Of a stretch of DNA of 35,258 nt, positions 1-34,746 are shown piece after piece. Where the stretch lies: contig CAMCXE010000012.1 of assembly GCA_945882995.1 (NCBI GenBank), positions 1-35,258 on the forward strand. The letters run 5' to 3'. Below the pieces are notes generated by a model that was not told the origin of the DNA, did no database searches, and worked only from the letters and a program-made list of their open reading frames with translations. Positions within the stretch are counted from its first letter, which is position 1. Each line of letters starts with the position of its first letter. The stretch comes from Thalassocella blandensis. GTDB taxonomy: Bacteria; Pseudomonadota; Gammaproteobacteria; Pseudomonadales; Cellvibrionaceae. The position numbers and the translations under genes were made by a program.

Positions 1-300
1 AGGGTCGTGGAAATAAATAACCATCCCAAATCCACCCTATGCTGGCATGCGAATAAACCATTGCTCTAGTTCAGTTTTTCTCTCCAATTTTGATTGTAAC
101 TATTCAGCATATTTCCCCGTCATCCCCGCGCAGGCGGGGATCCAGCGGCCAATAGACGGTTTTTACTTGAGTGAATATCGTGATTGCTTCTGAGCAGTTG
201 CCATCTGGATCCCCGCCTGCGCGGGGATGACGTGGGAAAATTAAAATTGTGCTGAATAGTTACTTTTGATTTTGGGATGATTATTTATTTCCACGGCCCT
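1..300. mobile_element. 300-bp MITE-like palindromic element
   Basis: The first 30 bases and bases 271-300 are inverted repeats matching at 28 of 30 positions and starting AGGGTCGTGGAAATAAATAA. A second perfect 28-bp inverted repeat (118-145 and 205-232, core CCCCGCGCAGGCGGGG) lies inside, and the sequence between the two pairs is also partly complementary (CTATTCAGCA near 100 versus TGCTGAATAG near 252). There is no coding capacity. Long terminal inverted repeats plus an inner palindrome fit a non-autonomous transposable element. The left target duplication cannot be seen because the element begins exactly at the window edge. I did not identify the parent transposase family. Confidence 0.8.
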
Positions 301-4487: not shown

Positions 4488-4522
4488 AAATATAGAATCT
4501 CGACAAATGTGAGGAGGGCCTG

Positions 4523-4689
4523 AACCTAGAAACCTCAGTTGGATCACCAAAGTCTGCGCAACCCCTTGGCGCGCCAAGCAAAAGTTAAATTTGGCGAACA
4601 ACCAACCAGGTTGCCCGCCAAATTTAACTTTCACTAATCACACCAATGGCTTACACAGCTTTTTGGCGCCCAACTGAGGTTTCTAGGCT
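4523..4689. repeat. Foldback repeat family C, copy C1 (complete)
   Basis: A 167-bp imperfect palindrome. The ends are AACCTAGAAACCTCAGTTGG (4523-4542) and its near-exact complement (4670-4689). The centre holds a perfect 16-bp stem (4581-4596 with 4616-4631) and an inner CAACC/GGTTG hairpin. Other copies lie at 22543, 32841 and 33481, with relics at 6639, 29926 and 32170. This copy occupies the divergent spacer between glk and xrtH. Bases 4690-4924 beyond it hold no recognisable gene. Confidence 0.9.
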
Positions 4690-4924
4690 GAAAGCCCGCC
4701 ACATTAGAGAAGCGGTGCGGGAGGGTCAAGCGCGAGCCCATGTCAATGCGCGGTGTTTCTATAGGTACCAAGCCCAGCGGGCAAAAATTTTCGCCTGCCG
4801 TCGGTTAGGGACGCCATCAACGCACCCCCTGCACTGGCCAGATCCATCCGCGACACACAACCGTCACACGCTTGGTTTAGCTTCCTGTCAGACACCTAGG
4901 TTACCTAGTCCGAGCAAGAAAATT

Positions 4925-6090: not shown

Positions 6091-6473
6091 TGCGTCGCCC
6101 GCTTTTGTTGGCGAACTCTTGGCTTTCTCGGCAATGGCATCAAAACGTACCGAGTGCTATGTGCTGCTATCAAAAATCCGCTATTCGCATGAATTAACGC
6201 GTTATCGCTCTAGGTGATATGCGGGTATTCACAGCACAGTGGTGGCGTCGCAATATGTGATCTTTACTTGACGCGCCAGCAAATAAGTAATTGTCAAAAA
6301 TACGTATTAAATAATTAACCTCTTGGACATCTTTTAGACACATGTCACGCATAACCTCAGTGCAATGATGGAGCGCGTAAGGACGCTAATGTTGGTGAGG
6401 TTATTGTCTCTCACTCACACGCAATTGCGGCTTAATGAGCGCTGGTGCCTGAATCAATCCACTTTAGCGTCAG
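6091..6473. other. Non-coding spacer upstream of the nuclease repeats
   Basis: About 380 bp between the XrtH partner gene and the palindromic repeat. No ORF with coding character is seen. An AT-rich stretch (6280-6330) contains TTGACG and TTGTCA boxes but no convincing -10 at the right distance, so I do not call a promoter. Confidence 0.4.
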
Positions 6474-6635
6474 GGGCACCTTCGGAAATTCACTTTTCGC
6501 GCTCTCGCTGCGTTATTTTCGCGCTCTCGCTGCGTTATTTTCGTGCTCAGTCGGTCATTTATACAGCATAAACTCCCTCCCTCCGCGCGAAAATGCCTTG
6601 CGGTCATCGCGAAAATTAAATTTCCGGAGGAGCCC
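6474..6635. repeat. Palindromic repeat family B, copy B1 (expanded)
   Basis: A MITE-like element with ends GGGCACCTTCGG and CCGGAGGAGCCC. It is the same family as 28721-28856, sharing the CTCGCTGCGTTATTTTCG, GCATAAACTCCCTCC and GCGCGAAAATGCCTTG blocks. This copy is longer because a 22-bp unit (cgcgctctcgctgcgttatttt) is tandemly duplicated and CCTC is repeated. It lies in the leader of the nuclease gene. Confidence 0.85.
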
Positions 6636-6638
6636 TTA

Positions 6639-6698
6639 AACCTAGAAACCACAGTTGAAGTGCGCAGCTTTTTGGCGCCCAGCCGAGGTTTCCAAGGT
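6639..6698. repeat. Foldback family C relic C7 (internally deleted)
   Basis: A 60-bp remnant that joins the left terminal repeat (AACCTAGAAACCACAGTTG) directly to the last part of the right arm (CAGCTTTTTGGCGCCCAGCC, then GAGGTTTCCAAGG). It abuts repeat B1 and ends 21 bp before the nuclease start codon. Confidence 0.75.
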
Positions 6699-11226: not shown

Positions 11227-11400
11227 GCTCAATCTACTGATAAAACAGTTTTTTGCCACAGCCGCTGGGCGCCAACTAGCGGCCTAATCCTTTGGCGCGT
11301 TTAGTAAACCTAGTGAAGGTGTGCGCGGTGGCTACAGGCAGGCCGGTAGGGCAATTGAGACTATTGGTTTGCCGGCGCAGGGGCGGCCGTGTTAGCAGCC

Positions 11401-22542: not shown

Positions 22543-22709
22543 AACCTAGAAACCTCAGTTGGATCACCAAAGTCTGCGCAACCCCTTGGCGCGCCTAGCA
22601 AAAGTTAAAAATGCCGAACAACCAACCCGGTTGCCCGTCATTTTTAACTTTCACTAATTACACCAATGGATTGCACAGCTTTTTGGCGCCCAACCGAGGT
22701 TTCTAGGTT
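22543..22709. repeat. Foldback repeat family C, copy C2 (complete)
   Basis: A 167-bp palindrome with intact ends (AACCTAGAAACCTCAGTTGG at 22543-22562). The central stem (22601-22616 with 22636-22651) has a single mismatch. It sits between the convergent DUF2126 and fliD genes and ends 10 bp from the fliD stop codon. Confidence 0.9.
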
Positions 22710-28673: not shown

Positions 28674-28720
28674 GTACCTATTCCTGTGGGTGGAGGGCAA
28701 TAGGTGCACTTTATACTAAA

Positions 28721-28856
28721 GGGCACCTCCGGCAATCCACTTTTCGCGCCCTCGCTGCGTTATTTTCGTGCTCAGTTGGTCATTCATACCGCATAAACTC
28801 CCTCCGCGCGAAAATGCCTTGTGATCATCACGAAAATTGAATTTCCGGAGGTGCCC
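28721..28856. repeat. Palindromic repeat family B, copy B2
   Basis: A 136-bp MITE-like element with perfect 12-bp ends GGGCACCTCCGG and CCGGAGGTGCCC. The interior matches B1 (6474-6635) without its tandem duplication. It fills almost the entire divergent spacer between the FHA and PP2C genes, so promoters of either gene may lie within or next to it. Confidence 0.88.
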
Positions 28857-28966
28857 TGAAGGTGTGGCGCTGCTGTCATAAAGTTAACAAAGATTCCGAG
28901 CCTTCAAGACAGCTGCGGAAAATTAGGTTAGTCTCGGCGCTCTTTGCCTTGGAAATAGCGCGCCTC

Positions 28967-32126: not shown

Positions 32127-32169
32127 CTTGGGGCTGTGGGGTGGGTGGGTGCTAAGGCCATTCGCTTAC

Positions 32170-32276
32170 TAAGCGATAAAAATTACAAACCGCTAGCCAA
32201 GTTGCCCGTAAATTTTAGGTTTCGCTAGTTACAGCGATGGATTGGGCCGCTCAACTAAGGCTTCTAGGTTCGGCCT
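32170..32276. repeat. Foldback family C relic C6 (degenerate)
   Basis: A degenerate copy: the left arm is lost, but the centre (AAAAATTACAAA, then GCCCGTAAATTTTAGG) and the right arm (CAGCGATGGATTGGG, CTCAACTAAGGCTTCTAGGTT) are recognisable. The central stem still pairs, with a third bases combination (TAC/GTA). It lies between the coiled-coil gene and the AsmA-like gene. Confidence 0.65.
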
Positions 32277-32840: not shown

Positions 32841-33008
32841 ATCCTAGAATCCTCAGTTGGATCACCAAAGTCTGCGCAACCCCCGGGCAGCGCCTAGCAA
32901 AAGTTAAAAATACCGAACAACCAACCAGGTTGCCCGTCATTTTTAACTTTCACTAATCACACCAATGGATTGCACAGCTTTTTGGCGCCCAACTGAGGTT
33001 TCTAGGAT
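32841..33008. repeat. Foldback repeat family C, copy C3 (complete)
   Basis: A 168-bp palindrome with ends ATCCTAGAATCCTCAGTTGG and CCAACTGAGGTTTCTAGGAT. The second base of each end differs from other copies in a complementary way. The central stem (32900-32915 with 32935-32950) has two mismatches. Its right end supplies the TAG stop of the relic reading frame at 33002. Confidence 0.9.
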
Positions 33009-33347: not shown

Positions 33348-33480
33348 AGCCTTGTCGGTTTCGCGGGTTCGCGTTTTCAGCTGTCAGTGGTGGTGTATTG
33401 CAGCCTGCAGGCGGCGGTAGATGGCTTCCATCGCCCAATCTTTGCGGCTGCGCCAAGATGCACAGAGACGTTGGCCCAAA

Positions 33481-33631
33481 TTGGATCACCAAAGTCTGCG
33501 CAACCCCTTAGCGCGCCTAGCAAAAGTTAAAAATCACGAACAACCAACCAGGTTGCCCGTGATTTTTAACTTTCACTAATCACACCAATGGATTACACAG
33601 CTTTTTGGCGCCCAACTGAGGTTTCTAGGTT
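33481..33631. repeat. Foldback repeat family C, copy C4 (left end missing)
   Basis: Everything from TTGGATCACC onward is conserved, but the left terminal 18 bases are replaced by unrelated sequence. The central stem is a perfect 16 bp (33523-33538 with 33558-33573) using CACG/CGTG where C1 has GGCG/CGCC. It lies about 330 bp upstream of the cold-shock gene. Confidence 0.88.
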
Positions 33632-33959
33632 AAATCTAGCGCTTGATATTTGTTGGTGATGTGGGTGTTGGGCAGATTTTTGAGTGGTTTTTATTGCCTG
33701 AAAAAATTAATTCAATCGTTTGAAATTGTTTGGCGTGGCGTGTCGTTACATTGATAACTTGTAAACAGCTTTGTTTGTCGTAGCAAAATTATATTAAGAT
33801 TTTGTGAAGGGTGTATTGCTATGCGTGTTTAAGGCGCATAAAATCGCCGCCGGTGTGACAGTTAGCGCCAACTTGTGTCGCAGTAAATTGTCGGTTGGTG
33901 CAAAATTAATCTGTCATGAGGATGCTACTACAGTAGTTAATTTTTGATTGGAGCGCGCA
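33632..33959 (+). promoter_or_regulatory. Long AT-rich leader of the cold-shock gene
   Basis: 328 bp without a gene. TTGTTT (33771-33776), an 18-bp gap and TAAGAT (33795-33800) could be a sigma-70 promoter, leaving a 5' leader of about 150 nt. A long structured leader is typical of cspA-type genes, where it acts as a cold-responsive RNA element. Small complementary segments exist, but I could not fold the leader here. Confidence 0.35.
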
Positions 33960-34169
33960 ATGTCTAGCAAAATTAAAGGCACAGTTAAATGGTTCAACGA
34001 GAGTAAGGGTTACGGTTTTATTTGTCGCGAAAGCGGTCCGGATCTTTTTGTTCACTTTAGCAACATTCAAAGCACTGGATTTCGCACCTTAAAAGAGGGG
34101 CAAGAAGTGGTCTTTACTGAAGGCTCCGGTCAAAAAGGCCCTCAAGCAGAAAATGTAGAAGTGGCATAG
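33960..34169 (+). CDS. CspA-family cold-shock protein
   Basis: A 69-residue single cold-shock domain, a nucleic-acid chaperone that melts RNA structure. RNP1 (KGYGFI, with [13 protein letters not shown]) and RNP2 (LFVHF) are intact, and the flanking KGTVKWFN start and [10 protein letters not shown] end are canonical. GGAG at 33949-33952 is well spaced for ATG 33960, so the in-frame TTG at 33948 is not needed. A strong terminator follows directly, so the gene is monocistronic. Confidence 0.97.
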
Positions 34170-34171
34170 TT

Positions 34172-34202
34172 AAAAATGGCGGCCTTGGCCGCCATTTTTT
34201 TT
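34172..34202 (+). terminator. Rho-independent terminator of the cold-shock gene
   Basis: AAAAATGGCGGCC and GGCCGCCATTTTT form a GC-rich stem closed by a tiny loop and ending in eight or nine T, two bases after the stop codon. The symmetrical A and T tracts would let it work in both directions. Confidence 0.93.
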
Positions 34203-34746
34203 GCGAAAAATAGCTGATAAACCTTGTTTTTGTGATGGTTGTGGATATTGGCCCCCGCATGGATTTGGCGACCGTTTTTGGGTGTCGTTCGTTTTGTGTG
34301 TGGGTGTTTTCCAGGAAATGCTGCAACGAATTCTGGGCTCGGTTGAATTTTTCAAGCGAGAGACACCTTGTTTGGGTGACTGTTATTTGAAGTTTCACGT
34401 CAATTGACTTTGGATTTTTGAGGGATTCAGGTAGGTTGTGTTATTTGCACCTTGAATTTTTTAGTGTTCGTTTGTTGCCGGGAGCAAGAAATTGCTGAGT
34501 TGCTAGCGTTTGGCGACATTTTGTTTTTTCTATATTTTAGCAGGCGAGGTTTGGCTATCTGCGTGCTGGATAATTTATTAATTCATCAGTCGCAGTTGAT
34601 CGCCAAACAGATTGAGCAATCTATGGTTGGCATTGATGGCGGTTGGAAATGACCGACAACCTGTTTGGCAATTTTTCACTTGCGATAGGCGTACCACGGG
34701 AAGGCACAGGCCTAGGCGGTTCAAGCTAGGCGTTTAGGCTTAACAG
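34203..34746. other. 544 bp without a confident gene
   Basis: AT-rich sequence with no recognisable RNA gene or repeat. A 66-codon frame from TTG 34452 to 34652 (VFVCCREQEIAELLAFGDIL, then LLIHQSQLIAKQIEQSMVGI) is open but has no convincing start, ribosome-binding site or family. Confidence 0.4.

Follow-up and report, generated by a model that had tools for sequence, protein, structure and literature searches.

The question raised by this locus is whether a stem whose bases vary between repeat copies yet stay paired is held by selection on a folded molecule, or whether one arm is rewritten from the other. The stem belongs to an interspersed repeat, here called family C, in a stretch of 35,258 nucleotides of Thalassocella blandensis (contig CAMCXE010000012.1, positions 1 to 35,258; hereafter the window). 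Covariation of this kind commonly passes for proof that an RNA structure is under selection, and family C lets the two causes be partly told apart. A preliminary description of the window had ascribed the pattern to selection, or a copying mechanism, acting to keep the fold and not the sequence; both causes are suggested by the data, at different places. The reading we favour, with moderate confidence, is that two processes shape this MITE family: selection for the fold of one strand in the lineages that spread, together with arm-to-arm copying in the genome of the window.

Family C is a non-autonomous transposable element

With a length of about 163 bp, the repeat belongs to the non-autonomous transposable elements known as MITEs. 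Its copies and relics in the window, and the arms of the stem under study, are as follows.

4525..4687, minus strand: copy C1, upper stem AAATTTGGCG/CGCCAAATTT; target duplication CTGAA at 4520-4524 and 4688-4692
6600..6698, minus strand: degenerate half element
11259..11309, plus strand: weak relic of a single end
22545..22707, minus strand: copy C2; target duplication TTTAA
29923..29986, minus strand: half element with a single end
32163..32270, minus strand: degenerate relic, C6 of the preliminary description, TAC/GTA
32843..33006, minus strand: copy C3; target duplication ATGAT
33476..33629, minus strand: copy C4, which holds the studied stem; nhmmer match to model positions 2-158
33523..33538, minus strand: 3' arm (minus-strand sense) of the 16-bp perfectly palindromic upper stem of C4, consensus pairs 60-75
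33558..33573, minus strand: 5' arm (minus-strand sense) of the same upper stem of C4, consensus pairs 60-75
34590..34738, plus strand: degenerate relic in reverse orientation

The three complete copies measure 163–164 bp. Copy C4 retains the terminal repeat at 33612-33629, and unrelated sequence stands in the place of the other. Positions 33523-33573 are its upper stem, in which 16-nt arms that are exact reverse complements flank the apex. The base differences described earlier among the copies are found in the sequence of the window, and the distal bases of the stem do vary while staying paired, being AAATTTGGCG/CGCCAAATTT in C1, CACG/CGTG in C4 and TAC/GTA in the relic C6. The single mismatch ascribed to C2 is present, as are the two of C3 at the DNA level, although one of these, read by eye, pairs as G·U when the minus strand is considered. 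What had been taken for a complementary change at the tip of C3 (AT..AT for AA..TT) proves to be its 5-bp target-site duplication, with ATGAT flanking the copy on either side.

The consensus has perfect terminal inverted repeats of 18 bp, with the ends CCTAGAAACCTCAGTTGG in inverted orientation, and its termini CC..GG adjoin a 5-bp duplication of the form nTnAn. Both ends were readable in 104 of the 114 near-full copies; the duplication is exact in 66 of these 104 and has one mismatch in 25 more, and all 66 exact cases fit nTnAn. Terminal repeats and 5-bp duplications, in a unit too short for a transposase gene, mark family C as a transposable element, and three features of a MITE are found: short length with terminal inverted repeats, a target duplication of fixed length and many dispersed copies. 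It moves as DNA by its ends, presumably through a transposase supplied in trans.

The genome is a draft of 3.96 Mb in 321 contigs, several of which begin or stop within copies. An internal motif allowing at most one mismatch gave 166 matches genome-wide, against none for the reversed control. From the stretches fetched we drew two sets, the first of 142 distinct matches giving 96 near-full copies (46 left out) and the second of 178 giving 114 (64 left out). No two of the 114 copies have the same sequence. Two derivatives (L010:1327-1431 and L046:2-104) appear by eye to have lost the top of the hairpin, as a hairpin-associated deletion would give.

Other repeats were seen in the same DNA. Window positions 1-300 form a separate inverted-repeat element (outer arms 1-30/271-300, inner arms 109-152/198-241), and similar sequence adjoins or sits within six family C copies (L056, L097, L103, L113, L081 and L052). 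A further family of repeats, the third, contains a short tandem internally and is found at 6460-6639 and 28707-28860, with inverted ends reported for the second copy.

A single long hairpin on one strand

On the minus strand of the window family C forms a single hairpin of about 75 bp. The consensus folds at −115.4 kcal/mol on this strand versus −79.2 kcal/mol on the opposite strand, and the hairpin's 75 pairs include 11 G·U; for C4 the values are −93.2 kcal/mol (z −10.9) on the minus and −58.1 kcal/mol (z −5.0) on the plus strand. All 114 near-full copies fold better on the minus strand. With the strands folded separately, G·U pairs are also commoner on the hairpin strand in 114 of 114 (mean 11.0 vs 1.5 on the opposite strand).

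A fair count of G·U and A·C requires each strand to be folded on its own. A ratio of 55:1 obtained on shared predicted pairs was biased, since folding excludes A·C by construction, and was replaced by folding of both strands. The fixed arm differences of the consensus are then 11 G·U versus no A·C, or one if the G·U in the fold of the opposite strand is included, and its opposed unpaired bases are A/G and AT/GG, not A/C. This asymmetry favours selection on one strand in the spreading lineages, in which changes that keep the fold of that strand would survive, with G·U tolerated and A·C hardly so.

No Rfam match in the window exceeded the gathering score, and a search of five loci at E ≤ 1 matched the element only to two miRNA precursors, weakly and far under their cut-offs. 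At 33817-34202 the window has a sub-threshold match to the cspA thermoregulator (RF01766; 42.9 bits vs a cut-off of 78, E 2.3e-08), which spans a cold-shock protein gene (PF00313; read as 33957-34169) together with its leader.

Related elements in other genomes

A search with the end motif, one base changed, led to 14 stretches of genome contigs. The same hairpin occurs in Halieaceae SI047_bin19, in the Gammaproteobacteria P_S1_bin.7 and B36_G6 and in Cellvibrionaceae CSMAG_696; the best match in a genome of the same bacterial family as the window's (G008) has 71% identity. We used 39 full copies out of 49 from the four other MAGs (10 left out), and 38 of the 39 fold better on the same strand. 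The consensuses of the five lineages, each folded independently, have 59 pairs common to all and 66 common to at least four; 17 of the 66 are altered on both sides, 6 on one side and 43 are unaltered. G·U pairs number 11, 13, 10, 11 and 11 on the hairpin strand of these consensuses versus 1, 1, 1, 2 and 2 on the opposite strand, and six are present in all five, counts that are not independent because the lineages share ancestry.

From 28 hand-picked rows, with no structure given, RNAalifold returned 64 pairs, 21 of them with a both-side change that keeps pairing. On that structure 95.4% of the cells are paired, both-side cells number 161 vs 59.6 after shuffling and the covariation is 0.336 vs 0.057–0.087 for slid partners; the number of both-side pairs is less striking, since 40 of 500 shuffles reach 21. 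Both-sided changes build up between genera in this way, probably under selection that acts on the element as RNA or as single-stranded DNA.

The same ends, with at most two mismatches, were also found in Burkholderiaceae Pmx449_bin7 (108), Hydrogenophilales 16-64-46 (28) and Sulfuriferula multivorans Bin2_2 (16). Twenty elements from the first two are of a different kind, 19 being 233–254 bp long and one 147 bp; exact 5-bp duplications flank 10 of the 20, and in each of the 20 one strand folds better than the other. In this second MITE family of Betaproteobacteria (L235-L254; G043 and G044), 19 copies contain 19 distinct both-side Watson-Crick changes in predicted stems. The plasmid and phage collections, searched with blastn in its 'distant' setting, gave no match to family C. 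Two loci in viral contigs have the end motif and no partner end in the stretches examined, and were taken as chance matches.

Covariation among the copies

Within the window's genome, covariation exceeds chance. In a shuffle test on 75 of the 96 copies, 17 pairs had both-side changes vs 7.3 in shuffles and 126 cells vs 40.8, and none of 500 shuffles was as high. On a FastTree tree of the 96 copies with parsimony states, both sides of a pair change on one and the same branch in 27 cases vs 5.6–6.2 expected, 1000 simulations reaching at most 15, and pairing is kept in 23 of the 27; these event counts are approximate, since the copies recombine (for example at pairs 46, 47, 59 and 60) and the tree is disturbed. 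Chimeric arm combinations are present among the copies. A ratio of 15 G·U to 1 A·C on internal branches was dropped, many of its events lying on recombining markers. About 30% of copies have a 3' arm variant at pairs 46/126 and 47/125 (29 and 27 of 95), by which one pair is lost and one base gained, and which seems to recombine between backgrounds.

A column-pair test, put forward earlier as a check and run here in a home-made form resembling R-scape with a tree-preserving null, gave no pair at E ≤ 0.05 among the 96 copies. The signal was weak in 69 cross-genus rows (30 random own copies of the 96 plus 39 from other MAGs), where the open test gave no pair and the stem-only test gave 2 among 72 stem pairs, although of the 60 best-ranked column pairs 10 belong to the stem vs 0.35 expected. 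The covariation noted in family C is real.

In the window's genome, matched changes lie in long palindromic runs

If a single event transfers a mutation from one arm to the other, matched doubles arise without two mutations and selection in each copy. The consensus has two long perfectly palindromic runs, one of 18 bp formed by the ends and one of 16 bp within the upper stem (34 pairs in all). In the 114 copies, all 25 distinct Watson-Crick doubles lie in these long runs and none in the 29 pairs of short runs, with one-sided states numbering 113 in the long and 89 in the shorter runs (p=3e-6, on a split by run length chosen after the doubles were seen). Private states alone give a ratio of doubles to one-sided changes of 15:63 in long versus 0:39 in shorter runs (p=0.002, on the same split). 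Non-Watson-Crick doubles show no such concentration (4 long, 8 short). The matched doubles in the window's genome follow DNA complementarity, not RNA complementarity.

By run, the upper stem has 21 distinct doubles (12 private) and the end run 4. The latter, of which 3 are private, makes a weak case taken alone, and with 12 of the 15 private doubles in one 16-bp run, selection special to that run is possible. Private doubles comprise 4 transitions and 11 transversions, and private singles 34 and 68 (p=0.77 for the difference); for rRNA, the part of PMC8794818 that treats instantaneous compensatory changes gives 61.0% as transition-type. The restriction of doubles to long perfect runs and a private spectrum like that of single mutations favour arm-to-arm copying of DNA, and the matched changes in this genome mostly look like its products. 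Where the arms are perfectly complementary over 16–18 bp, a mutation in one would often pass to the other in one step, template switching within the hairpin during replication being the most likely route, as in quasi-palindrome mutation.

Copy L027 has three differences from its nearest neighbour, two of which make up one A-T to C-G double. In L101:102-269, flanked by TTTAA on both sides, some 16–20 nt within the 5' end match the complement of the copy's own 3' arm, although exchange with another copy could be the source of this rewritten segment. Among 21 nearest-neighbour pairs with at most six differences none has a matched double, a mild argument against copying at a very high rate.

The association of matched changes with DNA complementarity, as expected of quasi-palindrome template switching, was found in the window's genome only, on a split made post hoc. 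In P_S1_bin.7 (31 copies) the run-length effect is not repeated (2 doubles in longer and 7 in short runs, p=0.30, at a cut-off of 8 bp and with one of the two long-run doubles at a flank position); its doubles are mostly transitions, its runs reach 11 bp at most and its copies are more decayed. Nor is the effect repeated in 19 of the 20 copies of the second family (1 double vs 18, p=0.69).

Arm copying alone, with template switching keeping the palindrome symmetric and the folded strands under no selection, would account for the confinement of doubles to long perfect runs, their neutral spectrum and the rewritten arm segment of L101:102-269. It has precedents in quasi-palindrome template switching in E. 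coli (in the part of PMC7202029 that describes it) and in the proposal that template switching maintains RNA hairpins (as put forward in a section of PMC8794818). We nevertheless think it improbable as the whole cause: it would turn G·U into Watson-Crick pairs, yet the six shared G·U pairs persist in all five lineages, and it would treat both strands alike, whereas the opposite strand has no more than one or two G·U pairs.

The one-sided changes bear on selection. Among those that alter a Watson-Crick pair, the ratio of G·U to A·C is 13:21 for changes in one copy, 26:24 for those in 2–4 copies and 6:0 for those in at least five (p=0.03). Single versus shared one-sided variants alone do not differ significantly (p=0.13); the fixed differences, 11 G·U to 0 or 1 A·C, do differ from the 39:45 of rare one-sided variants (p=0.0006, or 0.004). 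Inserted copies thus drift, and spreading lineages seem to keep one strand pairable. For individual inserts the earlier statement, that it is the fold and not the sequence that is preserved, goes too far, given the private counts of 13 G·U and 21 A·C.

Could selection alone produce the doubles? A hairpin of RNA or single-stranded DNA would be needed for spread, and the doubles would be two-step compensations in source copies outside the sample. The compensation between genera, the G·U asymmetry, the 6:0 ratio in widely shared variants and the transitions of P_S1_bin.7, which a wobble route predicts, all fit. This explanation is nonetheless rather unlikely: the 29 short-run pairs also pair in RNA and have none of the 25 Watson-Crick doubles, the private doubles are mainly transversions (11 to 4) like unselected singles, and private singles show no bias to pairing.

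We regard it as very unlikely that the matched changes are false, created by alignment or by short-read chimeras between copies and arms. The assembly is a draft of 321 contigs in which several start or end inside copies, and chimeric arm combinations do occur. A private double, however, is a pair state absent from the other copies, which mixing could form only from two other copies with the halves. Furthermore the 114 copies all differ in sequence, 66 of the 104 have exact target duplications, and other MAGs contain the same fold with different sequences.

Genomic setting

The neighbourhood of the element was analysed with simple ORF calls for 86 of the 96 copies (10 with short flanks left out); 26 of the 86 have no neighbour gene within 400 bp on at least one side. 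A role at the level of the host, in which the hairpin would be retained in place to form 3' ends of host messages or to direct their processing, in the manner suggested for ERIC and NEMIS, finds some agreement here. None of the 86 copies lies inside an ORF of at least 90 aa, convergent gene pairs outnumber divergent ones (24 to 10), 18 of 85 gene ends facing the element fall from 4 bp inside it to 11 bp away, and there is one terminator-like match on the minus strand (0.4 expected in shuffles). Tandem gene pairs are, on the other hand, unbiased (12 sense, 14 antisense), private variants lack a bias to pairing, and the placement can also be explained by plain avoidance of promoters and genes; we consider such a role quite unlikely. 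The setting does not suggest that the hairpin must sit in host messages in a given direction.

Comparison with known elements

In architecture family C resembles Correia/NEMIS, ERIC, RUP and YPAL, which in the portion of PMC2229807 devoted to them are 100–200 bp long, with terminal inverted repeats or a long hairpin and target duplications, mostly intergenic and without a transposase gene. Assignment to Correia/NEMIS, ERIC or RUP was rejected on the termini, which for Correia, ERIC and RUP are TA (PMC2229807, Table 1) and for family C are CC..GG next to a 5-bp nTnAn duplication. Family C further differs from Correia-type MITEs in that its fold is strand-specific and kept across genera with both-side changes. 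QMITE1 and QMITE2 of Coxiella burnetii are likewise gammaproteobacterial MITEs with very stable long hairpins predicted. In the part of PMC5896051 that describes them, QMITE1 is about 400 bp with 2–4 bp repeats and QMITE2 has 7–9 bp repeats, unlike family C; the word 'compensatory' is absent from the main text of that paper. The literature searched, at the level of titles and summaries, gave no name for family C. It is thus a MITE of a family not found named, with a hairpin conserved on one strand. We know of no target duplication for REP or BIME sequences. Family C, with 163 bp and 5-bp duplications, was set apart from these palindromes, which measure 20–40 bp in the passage of PMC3733652 that defines them.

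A parent transposase was sought through the ends of the element.

ISEcp1 is a member of the IS1380 family. Its ends (IRL CCTAGATTCTACGT, 4-5-bp repeats; PMC7864471, in the part on its termini) are like those of family C in beginning CCTAGA and in duplications that are mostly of 5 bp; none of the ISEcp1 duplications in that part of the paper fits nTnAn, unlike family C. An IS1380-type parent was rejected for the window's draft genome, which has no PF13701 match. A PF13701 search of five genomes found the domain in two relatives, with no pair of family C ends around the genes. No end pair at insertion-sequence spacing was seen by eye among the matches listed, and no ORF beside the single ends in L162 and L166 looks transposase-like by eye. 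In all, no autonomous element or parent transposase with family C ends was found in the genomes examined.

Discussion

Both halves of the earlier proposal are suggested by the data, each in its own place. Selection is supported by a hairpin kept in other genera, by the 17 of 66 pairs altered on both sides and by the G·U asymmetry between strands; copying by Watson-Crick doubles that occur only in long perfect DNA palindromes with a private spectrum like that of single mutations. The whole element is best viewed as an imperfect palindrome whose minus-strand form is predicted to be one long hairpin with many G·U pairs. Its matched changes recall quasi-palindrome template-switch mutation, by which, in the relevant parts of PMC7202029 and PMC8794818, the arms of imperfect inverted repeats grow alike in one event and multi-base compensatory changes result. 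Unlike in those studies, copying is inferred here from more than 100 dispersed natural copies in one genome, and the effect appears only in perfect runs of 16–18 pairs.

A broader idea, which we hold to be speculative and doubtful, is that the family extends over Gamma- and Betaproteobacteria and that its propagation depends in cis on one folded strand, of RNA or single-stranded DNA, although the ends and duplications resemble those of an ordinary DNA transposon. Were this so, the G·U pairs would permit complete folding of one strand and spare the DNA from being a perfect, unstable palindrome.

Segments of family C that are perfect DNA palindromes have matched changes with a neutral spectrum, whereas the wobble pattern and the both-side changes between genera still point to selection. 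If the two-process reading is true, covariation in young palindromic repeats can overstate selection, and family C would offer a natural test bed for arm-to-arm copying.
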